From contig NZ_CP140255.1 in the NCBI RefSeq assembly GCF_034479615.1, positions 1,798,001 through 1,862,000 of the forward strand: a stretch of DNA of 64,000 nucleotides. The letters are read 5' to 3'. A program made the translations under genes and the position numbers. This DNA comes from Vreelandella neptunia. GTDB taxonomy: Bacteria > Pseudomonadota > Gammaproteobacteria > Pseudomonadales > Halomonadaceae. The notes beneath the pieces are model-generated. The model made no database searches and had not been told where the DNA came from. It worked only from the letters and a program-made list of their open reading frames with translations. Numbering within the stretch: the stretch's first letter is position 1; each line of letters opens with the position of its first letter. Below are positions 1 to 9,062 of the stretch, one piece after another.

Positions 1-1555
1 TTAGATATATTGTTGAATCTCCTTCTGTCCGAAGATTTTTAATTCTCCTACCTTCTGGGCCTGCTAACGTTTCAGCTTCATTGTAGAGATGGTACAAAAT
101 ATCAGTCATGTAATTTTTATTTTCACCTGCTATTTCGTTTTGAAGGTCGTTATCAATAATCATATCAAGGTAAGAGGCAATGTTGGCTTGGTTTGCATAC
201 CAAGCGGTCATCGCTATGTTTATGTGCTTAAACTGATATTTTATATCCAATAGAGAAGCTAATTTGTTGCGTACCAAGTAAACAGCAAAAGTACGCCGAA
301 AACAGTGAGGGTGGACTTCTAATATGTCGCCTGTTTTCAATTCACCTGTTCGCGTAGGGTTTAAGAGATTGAATTCTTTTACTTCTTCCTTATTTGCACG
401 ATAGTCTAGTGAACGCACGAACTTTCTAAGAGAATGAGCGAGTGACTGCTTTCCTGCTTTAGGTGTATTAGCCGTTGTGTATGGAAGTGTTAAGAACAAA
501 CTATTCACATCGTTTAAAACTCTATCTCTTTCATCTTTATGCTGTATATTTGCTGCTCGATTCAACCATTTTTCACGAGCAAAGCCGAAAGCATCCCACA
601 AAAGCTCAATAGCTTTTTTTACACTCGGAATAGTAACCCATGAGGTTTGCCTCTCAACGCCGCCTACGTTAGGCTTAGTATGCTTTCCGTTAAGAATAGA
701 TACTGTAAAGCCTGCATATTTTTTTTCTTGGTATGATTCGATATTAAAAGCTTTGATTTCACTGTCCCTGCACCCTGTGAAAGCAGCAATAACGATATAG
801 CACGCCCCTCTTAATTTTGATAGCCAAGCGCCGCTATAGTCAAAAGTAATATCTAAACCATTAGGTGCGCTTTTTACATTTTTAAGGGCATACTTAATGC
901 GCGTCCTAACTGCTGAGTATTTTCCAATCGATATTTCGTATTCGCTAGTATACTCATCATAAGACGCAGATATTTGATGCCTGTATGGGTGTAGTTTTTC
1001 AACGAAACTGAGAGCTTCGCTGTAGTAAGCTGAAGCTATTTTTTCAGGCAAACAAACAGACTGTGAAAAAGTATCACCATGTGGTGCTAAATAAATAGAT
1101 AGTTTTTCAAAATTATCGATCTTTCGAGTTATGATGCCTTCATTTTGAGCATGGGTGACAAAAATAAGGTGATTTTTCCATGTTTTATACTTAAGATTTC
1201 TTTTTTTAGCTTCTTCTAGAAAAACTCTATAGTTATGGTCATTATTTATAAAGCCAAAATCGCTTCCGCCACAAGCTGTGATGCAACGCTCAAATATTGC
1301 GGCACCTGATAATAGATTTTCAATAGAGCTTTTCTGAGAGCTAAGTGTTGTTTTGTTAAGAAGATTGTAAACAATTTCTTTGGCGCTAGACTTAAAGTTT
1401 CCGGTAAGCATGCTGAAAGAAATGTTGAAGTTGAGTGACCATATAATCCATTTGTCAGATATGTAATAACTATAAGGTTGTCCATCGGAGTCGTAAGACA
1501 CTATAACATCGCTGGAGTTGTTGTATAGCTCTTTGGTTTTAAGTTTTTGGTTCAT
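1..1555 (-). CDS. Tyrosine recombinase-like protein, third gene of the trio (C-terminus outside window)
   Basis: This leftward frame opens with ATG at 1555 and stays open to the window edge, giving at least 517 residues; the end is not seen. Near residue 261 it has TGCRDSEI, which fits the first catalytic Arg of tyrosine recombinases. Near residue 417 it has HCFRRTFAVY, the His-x-x-Arg pair, and near residue 451 AMTAWYAN supplies a candidate nucleophilic Tyr. The N-terminal 250 residues resemble nothing I recognise. Its ATG overlaps the stop of the upstream gene as TAATG, so translation is probably coupled. The low GC differs sharply from the core genes to the right. Three adjacent recombinases at an island border recall the Gamma-Mobile-Trio proteins (GmtY/GmtZ/GmtX) or RIT elements; the protein lengths favour the former, but this is inference. 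Confidence 0.75.
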   Translation of the reverse strand, partial: MNQKLKTKELYNNSSDVIVSYDSDGQPYSYYISDKWIIWSLNFNISFSMLTGNFKSSAKEIVYNLLNKTTLSSQKSSIENLLSGAAIFERCITACGGSDFGFINNDHNYRVFLEEAKKRNLKYKTWKNHLIFVTHAQNEGIITRKIDNFEKLSIYLAPHGDTFSQSVCLPEKIASAYYSEALSFVEKLHPYRHQISASYDEYTSEYEISIGKYSAVRTRIKYALKNVKSAPNGLDITFDYSGAWLSKLRGACYIVIAAFTGCRDSEIKAFNIESYQEKKYAGFTVSILNGKHTKPNVGGVERQTSWVTIPSVKKAIELLWDAFGFAREKWLNRAANIQHKDERDRVLNDVNSLFLTLPYTTANTPKAGKQSLAHSLRKFVRSLDYRANKEEVKEFNLLNPTRTGELKTGDILEVHPHCFRRTFAVYLVRNKLASLLDIKYQFKHINIAMTAWYANQANIASYLDMIIDNDLQNEIAGENKNYMTDILYHLYNEAETLAGPEGRRIKNLRTEGDSTIYL

Positions 1556-3339
1556 TAGTAAATGTCCAGCATGAGTTCAATGTCGTTAGTGTCTTGCCAA
1601 AGAGGGTGTGGTGCATCTAAGTATTTTTGATAAGCCTCAAAGTAAACAGCTTCGTGTTTATCTCTCATTCGTTCAATAATAACCTGAACAGTATTGCTAA
1701 CTTTATGCAGTAAGCTTGTTGGTTTTGAGTTGATAGATGGGGTCGTAATAGACTCTAATATAACATCGCTGAATGATAGTAGTAACCATATATCTTCTAC
1801 TTCTGCTACCACTGCATGATGCATGCAACCAAAACACTCTAAAAACTTATGGCAAGCAACAAGCTCCGATTCGTTGGCAATTCCTTCTTTAATTAACGCA
1901 TTTTTTATCTTAATGGATTTTTCTTCAAAGGCTCCGCCGCATCTTAAACCGTTTGATAGTTTCTTGTATTTAGTGTCTGCATTGCTTTCTTTGATGGGGT
2001 CTTTGAAGATGAAAGCACTGTCTTTTATTGCTTTATCTAACGGTGTTCCTAACGCAGTTTGCTCACGTACGTATAGCGCAGAAGCCAATGAAAATTCAGT
2101 AGTTACTGGATCTCCATTAGCGTAATGCTTAGATGCGGTTGCTACAGAGTTATTTAGCCCTTGAGCAACCATGAATATGCTTTCTGTCGCTCTCATTATA
2201 AGAGAGGCCTTCGTCTTTCTAAATCTTTGGCTTCTAAATGAAGGAATGTCAAAGCTGTTGATGTATTTGTTAAGAGAGCTAGCGTTACTGCTAGTCATTT
2301 TTGATGGCTCATTCTTAGACAGGTTTGGAAATATATAGCCATCCTTGTATGAGTTTAGCTTTTTGCTGATTCTGAGCCATCTATCAAAAAAGATTTTACC
2401 TTTTTTGGTAAAGCCAGCTCCTATTTTGTTTGTTTTACCTGATTGTCTTCCTTTTACTGTTTTTAGTGTGTAGGTTCCGCGAGAAATATCTTGGAAAGGC
2501 TCTTCAGTGATATCTGATATTTTTAATTCAAGAAGAGGGTTAGAGTTTATACCAGTATGTAAGCAGGTAATGAAATATGCAGCTCTAACTAAGTCAGTTT
2601 TCCATATACTAGAACTGTTTCTGTATGTTGTGTGTCTTATTGCACTGCCGTTGCTGATGAACTTAAAAGAGCCATCTTCATTTTTTTCATTATAAAGTGG
2701 AAATGTTGTTGGTGTGGTACCGTATTCTATATGTTTTGCGTAATTATTGAAGATGGTGTAAAGAGCCGAGGCTATTTTTTTAAGCTCAGCATCTGTGTAT
2801 GGCTTTGTAGGTTCATTGTCTGCTGGGAAAACTGTAAATATATTTTCACATTGCTCATAAAGAACGATATCTAGTTCTTTTATTAATGATTTAATGGCGT
2901 TCTGGCGAGAGGATATGCTTTTTCCTTTTACACCTTTTTTATATAATTTTACAAGCTCGTTGATATACTGAGATACAGCATCAAAGCTAAAAAAATTTTC
3001 AATACCTTCTGAGTCCATCATTCTAATAAATGACACGGTCTCTCGAAATATATTGATTTTAGTTCTATCAGTTTTGTCCATGCTGTGGATTGCGTTGCAA
3101 ATTTTAATAGCCGTCAACTTTCTATTCGCATCAACAATGGAGGGCTGGTCTTTATTGTGGTATATACGCCGTCCCTCCATTGGAAGAACAGGGCAGCCTA
3201 TGTAAAGCAACCGTTCAAAATTAGCGGTACTATGTCCATCTGTAATGAATTTGTCGTTTAGGTTTATACTGACTATATCTTCACCAACGATTGATGTTAC
3301 TGCTGATATTTTTCTTCTGCTTTCTTTTAGAAAAGCCAT
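1555..3339 (-). CDS. Degenerate tyrosine recombinase-like protein, second gene of the trio
   Basis: A 594-residue protein between two other recombinase-like genes, overlapping both as TAATG (start at 3339, stop at 1555-1557). The C-terminal half keeps part of a tyrosine recombinase fold: SQRFRKTKASLIM near residue 372 looks like the second-Arg region and ASKHYANGD near 405 could hold the Tyr. The segment where Arg I is expected (CLHTGINSNPLLEL, about 263) lacks the Arg. About residue 500 there is a Cys/His-rich stretch (CHKFLECFGCMHH) that could bind a metal. It is therefore probably not an autonomous recombinase but a partner of the flanking two. In Gamma-Mobile-Trio elements the middle protein is GmtZ; assignment here rests on gene order and length only. 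Confidence 0.75.
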   Translation of the reverse strand: MAFLKESRRKISAVTSIVGEDIVSINLNDKFITDGHSTANFERLLYIGCPVLPMEGRRIYHNKDQPSIVDANRKLTAIKICNAIHSMDKTDRTKINIFRETVSFIRMMDSEGIENFFSFDAVSQYINELVKLYKKGVKGKSISSRQNAIKSLIKELDIVLYEQCENIFTVFPADNEPTKPYTDAELKKIASALYTIFNNYAKHIEYGTTPTTFPLYNEKNEDGSFKFISNGSAIRHTTYRNSSSIWKTDLVRAAYFITCLHTGINSNPLLELKISDITEEPFQDISRGTYTLKTVKGRQSGKTNKIGAGFTKKGKIFFDRWLRISKKLNSYKDGYIFPNLSKNEPSKMTSSNASSLNKYINSFDIPSFRSQRFRKTKASLIMRATESIFMVAQGLNNSVATASKHYANGDPVTTEFSLASALYVREQTALGTPLDKAIKDSAFIFKDPIKESNADTKYKKLSNGLRCGGAFEEKSIKIKNALIKEGIANESELVACHKFLECFGCMHHAVVAEVEDIWLLLSFSDVILESITTPSINSKPTSLLHKVSNTVQVIIERMRDKHEAVYFEAYQKYLDAPHPLWQDTNDIELMLDIY

Positions 3340-4682
3340 TAATATTCACCGCTTTCAAGAATTATGTCTGTGGCTATTTCATGAATTTCATTAGCCGTAA
3401 CTACCTCCTCTGAAAGCTTGAGATAGCCCAGTAGTGTGGCTCTGCTTTTGTGCCCCATCACAGACTGGAGATAGTCGAGGGCTTTTCCTTCTTTTATTCC
3501 TGAATTTAATAATTCTTTTAATCTTTCGATAGCATAGGTAGAGCGTAAATTATGGAATTTATGGCTAAAATTTGGAAGTTCGTTTTTAATAGCATTTCTT
3601 AGCTCACCCCATCGTGCATCAATACTTTTAGGTGAATATGGTTTGCCTAGTTGGTTTAAGAGCAGTGGGGGGCCATATTTATCTTCAGGATTGCTTTCCT
3701 CATATAGTTTCCTGCGCTGTATATATCGGGCTGAGTTGGTATAGTGATAAAGCCGTTGCATTAATTCGGAAGGAATTTCAGCTATCCTTACCGTACCATT
3801 TTTAGTTGCCACACCCGCCCTTGGGTCAAGAGTTAAACCATCAGCGTTGATCAGGTAGTTCTTCCTCAGTTGTTCTGAGTTAGGCTTGTAAATTGCATTT
3901 ATGGGAAGGGTTATAATTTCTGATCTTCTCAATCCACAGTATCGGCTTAGCTCGATTGCAATTTTGAACTCCTGAGATAACGCAACGCTCTTTGTATTAT
4001 TGCCTCTGTTAGAAACTCCAGTTTGAAGCTCCTTATAGAATTTTTCAGCCACGCGCCATTCCTGATGGTTCAATGGGAGCAGTTTGCGTGATAGGCCATA
4101 ATAGCTCGTATCATTTGGTAGCTTTAATCTTAGATCAGTGGTGTCCACATGAACCAATGTTTTTCTCATGTACTCATGTGACCCACTCGTATTGACTTTG
4201 ACTATCTCGTACTTAAACGGTGGGTATTCAAATGGGTGATTTCTAGCTAGATAAAATTTATAAAACTTGATCACTACGCCCATATAGCTATTGGCAGTAG
4301 ATTTAGCTATATCTCCATTTTTATATGCTTCACGCAGGTGCTTCTTAAACCCATAGGTAGGTCTTTTTCTAAGGGCGGCAGGCATAGTGTCCCAAGCCAT
4401 GCCTGTATCATTTAGGAACGTAAAATAGTGAAGTAATGCCTGGGCTTGCGTGTTAACCATTTTCTTGCGCAAATTGGCTTTTAAATGAATGAGCCAAATG
4501 TTCGCAACACTAATACTGACACCGTCATCTTTATACAAAAGAGGAAGTTTTCCTAGAGAGTTGCCGGTTCCTTCAAAGCATATCGATAGCTCTCCGGTGC
4601 CGCTATCAATCTCTCTGTTAATTTGCTGATCTACAATTAAGTCAGGAATTTCCCATAGCACTATGCCCACATGACCACCCAT
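3339..4682 (-). CDS. Site-specific tyrosine recombinase/integrase, first gene of the trio
   Basis: A 447-residue protein with a complete set of visible tyrosine recombinase motifs: Arg I in CGLRRSEIITL (about residue 249), HKFHNLRSTYAIE (His-x-x-Arg, about 378), VMGHKSRATLLGYLKLS with the His/Trp-position His (about 412) and the nucleophile Tyr (about 418). The N-terminal part should contain the core-binding SAM-like domain. It is the outermost gene of the island, only 69 bases from the junction with topB, and reads inward; topB transcription would run straight into it. It is the best candidate for the catalytic integrase of the element (GmtY-like by position). AT-rich codon use marks it as acquired. 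Confidence 0.88.
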   Translation of the reverse strand: MGGHVGIVLWEIPDLIVDQQINREIDSGTGELSICFEGTGNSLGKLPLLYKDDGVSISVANIWLIHLKANLRKKMVNTQAQALLHYFTFLNDTGMAWDTMPAALRKRPTYGFKKHLREAYKNGDIAKSTANSYMGVVIKFYKFYLARNHPFEYPPFKYEIVKVNTSGSHEYMRKTLVHVDTTDLRLKLPNDTSYYGLSRKLLPLNHQEWRVAEKFYKELQTGVSNRGNNTKSVALSQEFKIAIELSRYCGLRRSEIITLPINAIYKPNSEQLRKNYLINADGLTLDPRAGVATKNGTVRIAEIPSELMQRLYHYTNSARYIQRRKLYEESNPEDKYGPPLLLNQLGKPYSPKSIDARWGELRNAIKNELPNFSHKFHNLRSTYAIERLKELLNSGIKEGKALDYLQSVMGHKSRATLLGYLKLSEEVVTANEIHEIATDIILESGEY

Positions 4683-4750
4683 GCTGTTATTTCACTATTT
4701 CATAGATTGTAAACGTAACAATCGCTTTCAATAGAAAAATCGTAACAGTG

Positions 4751-5066
4751 CTCGGTCGGGGTCGCCGGCGTGAACCACATCGGTGGCTTGTTTGATCAGC
4801 TTGCGAATTACTGCCAGTTGGCCCCGCGCTTTGGGGCGCGGCATCAGTTTCCACTGCTGCGGCACAATGGGTAGACGGTCAAGTCGCCACTGTTTATCTG
4901 CGGGGTCGTAGGCTTCCGGCGGCGCTTGCTCTAATAAGTGCCCAAGGCACCAAGTGACCGTGGTATCGCCACACACCATCGCGCCATCCTGGCGTTTGCT
5001 ATAGCCCGGTAACGCCTCGGCAATGGCTTGGGCGAGGCTGGGTTTTTCGGCAATTATCAGGCGCAT
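4751..5066 (-). pseudogene. topB: topB 5' fragment, DNA topoisomerase III interrupted by the island
   Basis: The frame from ATG 5066 gives MRLIIAEKPSLAQAIAEALP, the start of type IA topoisomerase III, with GHLLEQAPPEAYDP and LPIVPQQWKL following in the expected order. About 105 codons are present of a family length near 650. It breaks at HAGDPDR, the metal-binding DxD of the TOPRIM domain, after the G of the next codon (normally Glu). Eight unrelated residues from the island follow before a TGA at 4728-4730. All catalytic Tyr and DNA-gate domains are missing, so this copy is inactive unless the distal part is rejoined by island excision. A GAAGG ribosome site precedes the ATG. The protein is a decatenase that acts with RecQ in E. 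coli. Confidence 0.87.
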
Positions 5067-6506: not shown

Positions 6507-7100
6507 CTAACTAAGAGGCTTTAGCCAAAACACCATTGGCTTATGGCTTTCCGTCTGCTCGCCAATATCTCGCCAAGCGAAGGTGGTGGCTAGCTCGCCG
6601 TGGCGCTGGTAGCCATGGGCGTTCCAGAAACCGTGAAGCGGTTGGTAGTCGGCAGGCTTATAGGGATGATCAATTGGCCGCTCTACCGCACAAAAAGCCG
6701 CTAAATCAAAGCCCTGTTGTTTTGCGTGGGCTTCTCGTTCGGCCAAAAAGCGCTTACCCGTTCCGCTGCCCCGGTAGCTGTGAAGCAACACGGATTCTCC
6801 ATAATAGAAGACGCGCTCGGGCTTGATACCGTTAGTCTCAAACGGCTGGCGGAATTCGTCGACTTCATCCTGCAGAGGCTGTCCGGTGGCGGCCCCCACC
6901 AGTTCTTCTCCGTCGAAGGCCAGTACGAATAAGCTATTCGGGTTCTCTGCATAGCGACCTAAATACTCCGCTTCGTAGCTGAGTTCGCCATCGTAGAGGT
7001 AGGGGAAATCGCGAAATACCCGAATGCGAAGACGGGCAAGCGCTGGCAAATGGGGGGATATCGCCTGACCTTGGCAGAGAATAACTGTCACTTCGCTCAT
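6507..7100 (-). CDS. GNAT-family N-acetyltransferase
   Basis: A 197-residue GNAT acyltransferase. The central segment LFVLAFDGEELVGAATGQPL forms the predicted beta strands of the acetyl-CoA fold, and LHSYRGSGTGKRFLAEREAHAK (about 105-125) matches motif A with its R/Q-x-x-G-x-G/A pyrophosphate-binding loop. The substrate cannot be predicted. ATG at 7100 has GGAG seven bases upstream. The gene converges with the ABC1 kinase, with 12 bases between the stops, and no shared operon is apparent. Confidence 0.85.
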   Translation of the reverse strand: MSEVTVILCQGQAISPHLPALARLRIRVFRDFPYLYDGELSYEAEYLGRYAENPNSLFVLAFDGEELVGAATGQPLQDEVDEFRQPFETNGIKPERVFYYGESVLLHSYRGSGTGKRFLAEREAHAKQQGFDLAAFCAVERPIDHPYKPADYQPLHGFWNAHGYQRHGELATTFAWRDIGEQTESHKPMVFWLKPLS

Positions 7101-7244
7101 TGCATCGCTCCAGCCGATTCAAACGCTGCATGGTTCGCTCAAATCGCTGCACTTTAGCAGCCCTTACGGTCGTCGCCAATCCTCTCTGCGGGAACCCTAA
7201 GGGTCATGCTAAACTATGCCGCTTTTAACACAGTGGAGACGGCA

Positions 7245-9062
7245 ATGCTGGCGGTATGGGTCGATCAGCTGCTGGGATTTGCCTCCGGGGCACTCTCGGC
7301 AATCAGGCAACAAGAACACTATCCGGATTTTATGACCTGGGTGCGCGCCAAAGGCGCGGATTCTTTTGAAGGCGATGTGGCTATGGCCCAGGCGCTGGCG
7401 CCGGTGCTATGGTCGCAAACCCCGCTGGAGAGGCTCGACTTTGCCTGTGAGCCCCTCGCCACGCCAGGGCGTAATGAACCTTGCTGGTGCGACTCCGGGC
7501 GCAAATTCAAACAGTGTTGCTACCAGATCGAGTTTCCTACCGAGATTCCCGATCAGATGATGTGGATGCTCTCGCTACGCGAATGGAAGGGCGCCACCCT
7601 GAAGGCCGCGCTGGAAAGCCAACAGGCACCGGCTCAAGCGCTCCTGGAAGCCGGGCTGATTGCCGCTGAAAGTGGCCAGACGGGCCGCGCTATGCAAATC
7701 CTTGAATCGCTGTTCGATGGCAGCGATTGGTCACGGCTGCCCGAACAGGCCGAACCCGCCTTTGAAATCCTGCTGGATATTTACCAAGAGCGCGGCTTTA
7801 GCCGTAAACGCGCCGACCTGCTTGATGACGTGATGGAGCGGGGGCCGCTGTTCTTACGCGGCGTGGCTCTTGAGCGTTTATGTTTGATGCACCTGGATAA
7901 CGATGACCTGGATAGTGCCCGCGGTGCCTTTGTAAAGGCCCAGCAGGCGCTGCCCGATTCGCCAACGCTGGCCTACATTGAAGCCATGCTGTTACTGCAT
8001 GAAGGCCACGAACAGGAAGCCAAAGAGCGCGCCAACTTCTGGTATCGCCGACTGGTTCGCCAGGGTGATCTGGATGAAGATCAGCTGGATTTCTTAGCCG
8101 CGTTGGCGGAAAACCCCGGCGCGACGCTTGCCGATCAACTGCTGAGTGCGGAAGAGGATCTGGCCACACCGCTGGTGGCGCTTCAGGCATTGTTAGCCGC
8201 GCTGCCCACTGCCCCCAAAATTGATGTGAGCGCCGACCCTGAAAGTGGCCGATTGCTTTACAACACCAGTGCACGTGAAGCGACGCTGTTTGCCGCCTGG
8301 CACGAGCAGTTTCAGGTGCTGGTGGATGAAGACGTAGCGCTGGGCTTCCGCGATGACCCTTGGGGCAACGCCATTGAGTGGATGTCGGCACTCTGTGCAC
8401 ATCCCGAGTGGCTGGACGCCCCCCAGGTAGTGCAAGACTTAACGTTGGCGCTCACCAGCCGCTTTGGCAGTCTGCCGTGGATGGCCCCAAGCCTGCTGGA
8501 ACCACTGGCGCTGCGCCTATCGAGGTGGTTGGAACAAGCCCGCGCCGAAGGCGACGGCAACCTTTGCTGGGACGATGCCAACAACGCCATGTTGCTACGC
8601 ACGGGGCTAGCGTTGGTGGTCGGTATGGAGCGCGGGGCGCGACAGCACTCCAGGGAGCTCGCCGAGGAGCTACTGCTGATTGACCAGGAGGATAGCCTGG
8701 GCCTGCGCGAGTTGGTGCTTGATCAACTGCTGCGTGATGATCGCAACGAGGAGGCGTTGGCGCTTGCGGAAGAGAGCGACGACGACGGCTCGCTGGTGCT
8801 CGGGCTGCTGATGGGCAAAACCCTGGCGCTCTATCGATTAGAGCAGCATGAAGCGGCAGAAGCGGCGCTAGGCGATGTGCTTGGCCATAACCGCTACGCG
8901 TTAGAGCTGATTTGTGCCGAAAATCCTCGGCCGTCCATGCCTCACCCGGATGGCCAGGTTGACCCCGGCACCCGGGCGGAAGCATGGCAGTACCGCACCT
9001 TGATGCGCGATCAGTGGCGCACTACACCAGGGGCGTTGGACTGGTTGGAAGCCCACCGCTAG
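7245..9062 (+). CDS. SEC-C motif protein with TPR-like repeats
   Basis: A 605-residue soluble protein of unknown role. Near residues 77-95 it has NEPCWCDSGRKFKQCC, the zinc-binding SEC-C motif also found at the C-terminus of SecA. The rest is mainly alpha-helical, with several degenerate TPR-like helix pairs (for example AGLIAAESGQTGRAMQILE and LAYIEAMLLLHEGHEQEAKE). This suggests a protein-interaction scaffold. GGAG lies six bases before ATG 7245, so I prefer it to ATG 7206. It is transcribed away from the GNAT gene and has no clear partner. Confidence 0.8.
   Translation: MLAVWVDQLLGFASGALSAIRQQEHYPDFMTWVRAKGADSFEGDVAMAQALAPVLWSQTPLERLDFACEPLATPGRNEPCWCDSGRKFKQCCYQIEFPTEIPDQMMWMLSLREWKGATLKAALESQQAPAQALLEAGLIAAESGQTGRAMQILESLFDGSDWSRLPEQAEPAFEILLDIYQERGFSRKRADLLDDVMERGPLFLRGVALERLCLMHLDNDDLDSARGAFVKAQQALPDSPTLAYIEAMLLLHEGHEQEAKERANFWYRRLVRQGDLDEDQLDFLAALAENPGATLADQLLSAEEDLATPLVALQALLAALPTAPKIDVSADPESGRLLYNTSAREATLFAAWHEQFQVLVDEDVALGFRDDPWGNAIEWMSALCAHPEWLDAPQVVQDLTLALTSRFGSLPWMAPSLLEPLALRLSRWLEQARAEGDGNLCWDDANNAMLLRTGLALVVGMERGARQHSRELAEELLLIDQEDSLGLRELVLDQLLRDDRNEEALALAEESDDDGSLVLGLLMGKTLALYRLEQHEAAEAALGDVLGHNRYALELICAENPRPSMPHPDGQVDPGTRAEAWQYRTLMRDQWRTTPGALDWLEAHR

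Follow-up and report, generated by a model that had tools for sequence, protein, structure and literature searches.

We consider it very probable that the host gene for topoisomerase III (topB) in Vreelandella neptunia has been interrupted, at the codons of the acidic triad of the enzyme, by an element of the SE type (strand-biased circularizing integrative element), and that this element carries a TopB of its own which likely replaces the broken one. The element occupies the left edge of the window, by which we mean the whole stretch of 64,000 nucleotides analysed here, and extends beyond it. The SE type is known and rescue copies have been proposed before (for bcp and tgl); topB as a target was not found in the literature searched.

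Recombinase genes and the interrupted host gene

Table 1. Features of the element and its border (L003 coordinate = window coordinate + 12000)
Feature	Coordinates	Strand	Description
intA	3339..4682	(-)	tyrosine recombinase, 447 aa; open frame, alignment, Pfam
tfp	1555..3339	(-)	594 aa; has the tyrosine-recombinase fold, lacks the catalytic set; fold prediction, tblastn
intB	2..1555, on past the window edge to L003:11684 (window -316)	(-)	tyrosine recombinase, whole protein 623 aa
srap	L003:11205-11681, beyond window	as intB	fourth gene, 158 aa
element topB	L003:9298-11208, beyond window	as intB	topoisomerase III (TopB), fifth gene, 636 aa, frame complete
native topB 5' fragment	4751..5066	(-)	ATG at 5066, codons 1-105 to GDPDR; frame continues into the element, stop at 4728
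attL spacer ACCGAG	4751..4756	(-)	6 bp, host-derived centre of attB; on the D105-R106-E107 codons
motif C CACTGTTACGA	4740..4750	(-)	left terminus of the element; sister counterpart is an inverted repeat with C'
382-aa gene	L003:8054-9202	(+)	no recognised family, no PADLOC match
insertion sequence	L003:6570-7875		IS3-type by our reading of the frames; 3-bp flanks unlike (GTA, GCC); between element remnant and host lysR

An earlier note on this DNA, made from the letters of the window, had described three leftward genes of 447, 594 and at least 517 residues, overlapping as TAATG and with catalytic motifs in the first and third proteins. The genome bears out each of these points. Both the intA/tfp and the tfp/intB junctions read TAATG, the third gene has its full length beyond the window, and the R-H-R-H-Y residues are invariant in alignments of five rows for IntA (R252/H377/R380/H411/Y420) and for IntB (R263/H417/R420/H444/Y453). 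IntA scores above the Pfam Phage_integrase cutoff (30.6 bits vs 27.1) and IntB below it (24.8 bits for the part in the window and 24.2 for the whole protein), while Tfp has no match to this Pfam model. By our reading of the alignment, the Arg of box I and the His are missing from Tfp, in which R374 and Y406 remain. Its predicted fold, a coarse model with mean pLDDT 70.6 and pTM 0.45, has XerH and Cre as the top structural matches (nearest XerH 5JJV), with five matches at E ≤ 0.001 and TM-scores of 0.26–0.30 over the query.

The description of the module as a trio at an island border in a halophile needs to be amended in part. A module of several recombinases does lie at a border, and the nearest named homologues of the carried TopB and of Srap come from Halomonas and Vreelandella, in keeping with the halophile setting, but the set has four genes, intA-tfp-intB-srap, with topB as the fifth. 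The last two lie outside the window, at whose edge the view of the earlier note ended, and the broken host topB was overlooked in it. The gap between intB and srap is two bases, and srap and topB overlap as TTGA, with the topB start codon overlapping the srap stop. The model of Srap (mean pLDDT 82.5, pTM 0.47) consists of three short helices and an 88-residue C-terminal helix at residues 59–146.

The border itself is clear. The 5' fragment of native topB adjoins intA, six fetched relatives cease to match at window position 4751–4753, and the GC content is 37.8% in positions 1–4682 compared with 54.6% in 4757–64000. In the same six relatives the match continues past topB into the flank that is present in the window, and the motif GDPDREGQ is unbroken in L010–L020. 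The fragment scores 40.3 bits for Toprim and 144 bits for the DNA topoisomerase 3 model, of which it covers positions 1–104 of 669; 105 codons of the gene remain up to the break at GDPDR|E, which falls on the codons for the metal-binding acidic triad, and the 3' part of the gene was not found in the window's own genome. The 105-residue fragment was matched in 18 of 18 other genomes of the genus searched, in 17 of them with 77–96% identity and open frames of at least 646 codons; the match in the remaining genome, G012, reaches only 50% because that genome holds a TopB of the element type. The cut falls on D105-R106-E107, and E. coli TopB likewise has Glu at 107. By way of the TOPRIM motif, Glu107 would correspond to E115 of topoisomerase I, whose triad D111-D113-E115 is described as strictly conserved and Mg2+-binding (PMC7823277).

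Sister elements, ends and class

Further copies are inserted at the same codons of topB. Two loci were found by an IntA search of genome contigs, in Pantoea sp. WMus005 (70%) and Tatumella sp. JGM91 (62%), both with the same gene order and with the remaining 3' portion of native topB at the far end, 16.0 and 23.0 kb off. Searching 82 genomes of the genus with Tfp added one element of 25.1 kb in a second genome of the genus, G075, where native topB is split and intA is broken by an insertion sequence; among 369 genomes of the class the Tfp search returned only the window's own copy, which shows that the query misses distant SEs. Three of 5,426 E. coli genomes have a match covering at least 80% of the query, with elements of 14.6–15.8 kb between selD and ynjI. 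The matches in the other 1,288 matching E. coli genomes have 60–80% identity and cover less than 80% of the query, and the 12 listed are short pieces of native topB. The three E. coli copies share identical att sites and are treated as a single lineage; in two of them an insertion sequence lies between intB and srap. Copies with both ends measure 14.6–25.1 kb.

Imperfect inverted end repeats, a 6-bp spacer, and attB halves at attL and attR were found in Pantoea, Tatumella, G075 and E. coli, that is, in the sisters, while the window's own copy has the left end only. In the Pantoea copy, C is TACTGTTACAA and C' is TTGTAACAGTA, with the spacer ATCGGG on the left and on the right, which predicts an attS of TTGTAACAGTA-ATCGGG-TACTGTTACAA. 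The spacer of the window's copy also occurs in the uninterrupted topB of L011 and L019, and its position is the same in the four sister lineages. Left and right spacers are unlike in G075 (ATCGAG and ACGACG) and in the E. coli copies (ATCGTG and ATGATG), and in both the host sequence resumes directly beyond the 6 bp. This is the footprint of SEs, and the left-right difference points to attR spacers brought by the donor and attL spacers left by the host. In Pantoea and Tatumella the two spacers are alike and therefore uninformative on donor origin. E. coli DSM 30083 reads ATCGCG at this position, compared with ATCGTG at attL of the element copies.

In the published descriptions an SE is defined by the genes intA-tfp-intB-srap, by RHRY residues in both IntA and IntB, and by a Tfp that shares their fold but has no catalytic set; its end repeats are imperfect and its spacer measures 6 bp (PMC10214605, PMC9345347). 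Read from sequence, the anatomy places the module in this class. The gene order stands at one end in our own copy and in those of Pantoea, Tatumella, G075 and E. coli, in comparison with pAQU1; RHRY is found in IntA and IntB and not in Tfp, and Tfp and Srap are homologous to those of known SEs. SE-Pda04Ya311 of pAQU1, an SE reported active (PMC10214605, PMC9345347), has the same gene order, RHRY, Tfp fold, long C-terminal helix in Srap, 6-bp spacer and inverted end motifs, with 28, 26, 28 and 34% identity over the full length of IntA, Tfp, IntB and Srap (tblastn E of 8e-43 for Tfp); it differs in target and cargo and in that no copy of a flanking gene was found within 6.5 kb after its srap. 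SE-6945, which we know from the papers, shares the gene set and end features. A search for Srap in phages gave no match.

The earlier note had proposed a GMT-like or related trio. The GMT, GInt, RIT and Tn554 systems all have several recombinases, and GMT islands, rich in defensive tools by the title of the paper on them, would suit the CBASS genes of G075. We nevertheless regard membership in any of the four, in place of SE, as unlikely. GInt has catalytic ginA and ginB, a ginC without the first Arg, and ginD (PMC5385486), so that its non-catalytic protein is the third, whereas here it is the second. RIT elements have three recombinases of 315–410 aa, all with the catalytic Tyr, and 34-bp terminal repeats, and Tn554 has TnpA, TnpB and TnpC with no counterpart of Tfp (both as described in PMC10214605 and PMC9345347). 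The proteins here have 447, 594 and 623 aa (Tfp, too, retains a Tyr, Y406), the motifs have 11 bp, and tfp is present; RIT, GInt and Tn554 fit worse than SE. This comparison covered SEs by sequence and GInt, RIT and Tn554 by description, and if GMT and SE are one family the choice between them is a matter of names.

The carried topoisomerase III

An uninterrupted TopB directly follows srap in 7 of 7 copies read, and in all of them Glu107 of the triad is replaced by Val. Val107 stands in each of the six loci compared (our own, G075, G012, Pantoea, Tatumella and E. coli BR1220) and also in the remaining pair of E. coli copies. The carried protein retains E7, K8, D103, D105, Y328 and R330 (E. coli numbering). 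The best 120 of 7,994 TopB matches comprise 117 proteins with Val, one with Glu, one with Gly and one without the region. Val is thus common to a wider clade, and immunity need not be the reason why it arose. Because Val107 drops a residue of the triad called strictly conserved in topoisomerase I, the activity of the carried TopB is unsure.

The three genomes of the genus with the carried type show no intact native gene. A TopB with 94–100% identity to the carried one is present in 3 of the 82 genomes of the genus, and native topB is split in G075, reduced to its 5' piece in our own genome and not found in G012. For the 76 remaining genomes of the genus that gave a match, the assessment used the tabulated identity (≤ 50%) and open frame, and 3 of the 82 had no match. 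In G012 the carried-type TopB fills the topB slot and has the same gene as its neighbour, which by our reading is a kinase-like frame; the genome yielded no tfp, the 19.9 kb read contained no recombinase frame, and a short stretch upstream resembles the end of srap, again by our reading. We take the G012 TopB as a fixed replacement of native topB. We infer from this pattern that the carried TopB is a rescue copy for the broken gene, and we grade both rescue and immunity below the anatomy, for which genes, target, sister ends and shared codons are read directly.

Two other roles for the carried TopB deserve weighing. Topoisomerase III acts on single strands, and the enzyme might be a working part of the movement, passing or unlinking the single strands of a copy-out, which its place as the fifth gene of the run, with a start overlapping the srap stop, would then reflect. 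We hold this to be improbable: the annotated ones among the plasmid SEs scanned show no topoisomerase after srap, G012 holds the TopB without tfp, a role in movement fails to explain why topB is also the target, and SE-6945 moves with a beta-lactamase gene as reported cargo (PMC10214605, PMC9345347). A second scenario makes TopB ordinary cargo of the ICE type, whose presence in an element inserted into topB is a coincidence. Genes for TopB do occur on other genomic islands and ICEs, and papers on islands and ICEs often mention topB. This scenario is the least credible that we weighed, as the gene has the same slot after srap in 7 of 7 copies, the closest TopB on a plasmid reaches just 57.7% identity to the carried one, and intact native topB is absent in 3 of 3 genomes of the genus holding the carried type. 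In 369 genomes across the class, with matches at E ≤ 1e-150, none but our own exceeded 58% identity to the carried TopB. A host/element hybrid as the origin of the carried topB was ruled out, both halves being about equally distant from native TopB. A hybrid-looking TopB was seen elsewhere, in P0035 (Nitrincola lacisaponensis), with 59% identity to the carried TopB in the N part, 82% in the C part and Glu at 107; it has perhaps arisen by recombination of a native 5' end with an element copy.

In a scan of the 6.5 kb that follow srap, 5 of 5 topB loci (E. coli being represented by one of its three copies) showed a homologue of the broken gene, compared with a flanking-gene copy in 0 of 5 plasmid SEs (six plasmid loci were fetched from a search that took the best 30 of 213 records, and L079, without gene annotation, was left out). 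A copy of the target gene as a general rule for SEs is therefore unsupported, and SEs do not need a rescue copy. The closest precedent for a rescue reading is SE-6283 (Tn6283), known to us from its published description, which breaks bcp and brings along a bcp homologue, seemingly right after srap to judge by the locus tags VYA_19790 and VYA_19800; that copy has already been proposed as a rescue (PMC10214605, PMC9345347). It differs in that the gene encodes a peroxiredoxin versus topoisomerase III here. In the Tn554-like Tn552-II of Staphylococcus aureus, tgl follows the recombinase genes and its authors propose a possible rescue (PMC12486829). This element shares the target-gene-like copy and the att brought in at the right end but has tnpABC and a 7-bp att, and its tgl keeps a copy of att whereas the carried topB is changed at the target codons. 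The literature searched, which did not extend to the supplementary list of 37 published SEs, contained no SE with topB as its target.

The change at the target codons suggests that the carried TopB has perhaps been recoded against self-insertion. Fixed differences between 116 Val-type proteins (the 117 less a short one) and 20 native rows occur at 4 of 11 conserved positions in residues 100–110 compared with 9 of 209 elsewhere (p = 0.002). The native rows represent 19 independent genomes, as G005 enters twice (L013, L055), and L058 was dropped, the motif being absent. With the 8 native rows from outside the genus the counts are 3 of 10 and 7 of 184 (p = 0.0099), and with the 12 rows from within the genus, which stand for 11 genomes, they are 4 of 11 and 98 of 319 (p = 0.46). 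Because residues 100–110 were picked after the site had been seen, the clustering is weak support.

By analogy with published SE work, IntA and IntB would cut and join strands, Tfp and Srap would assist in assembling the complex, and the element would move by copying out a circle that inserts elsewhere. Under the rescue reading, the carried TopB, start-stop overlapped with srap, would restore topoisomerase III activity and keep the cost to the host low, and Val at the target codons likely prevents insertion into the element's own topB. A bolder extension, to which we give not quite an even chance, is that the element takes over a housekeeping gene: it would target invariant triad codons, a site offered by most hosts, gain immunity through the change from D-D-E to D-D-V, and have given rise to a line of natural type IA topoisomerases that function in the absence of the third acid and can be the sole topoisomerase III of a host, as in G012.

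The system is a natural example, recurring in several genera, of an element that disrupts the gene of a conserved enzyme at the active site and brings a probable substitute with it. The rescue idea, proposed until now for bcp and tgl, thereby becomes directly testable. If the carried enzyme works, it also tests whether type IA topoisomerases need the third acid of their triad. For annotation, a split topB beside intA-tfp-intB-srap signals an SE both of whose ends are defined, and helps to locate cargo, such as CBASS in one sister.

Cargo and the lost right end

The earlier note had suggested that cargo to the left of the window may be defensive or offensive, and had proposed to look there for the other end of the island. 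The sequence there was read: the window's own copy extends about 8.9 kb beyond attL, to an insertion sequence and then host genes, which rules out a far cargo; the element stops at the insertion sequence and its far end is gone. After topB come the 382-aa gene and a truncated gene, regulator-like by our reading; no defence gene was recognised in this cargo, nor any family apart from topB in the remaining part. Homology to the sister element ends at the edge of the insertion sequence, beyond which lysR and an M20 peptidase gene follow in the same order as in the relative G006, with G005 and G008 matching further on. The right end and the remainder of native topB have probably been deleted beside the insertion sequence in this genome, in an order of events that we can only suggest, and with its right end lost the window's own copy is likely immobile. 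The suggestion of defensive cargo does fit the sister in G075, which carries an apparently full CBASS set (cyclase, E1-E2, JAB, SAVED-2TM) and AbiTii, at L047:458-5082 and 6995-7873, together with PDC-S51. In E. coli BR1220 the cargo consists by annotation of response regulators and a TPR protein. A stretch 94.8% identical to the insertion sequence of the window's own copy is present in the G075 element. Separately, on the Shigella dysenteriae plasmid p69-3818 (L078) umuD is followed by an SE-like module of four genes, and a gene annotated as AbiH lies behind the fourth.
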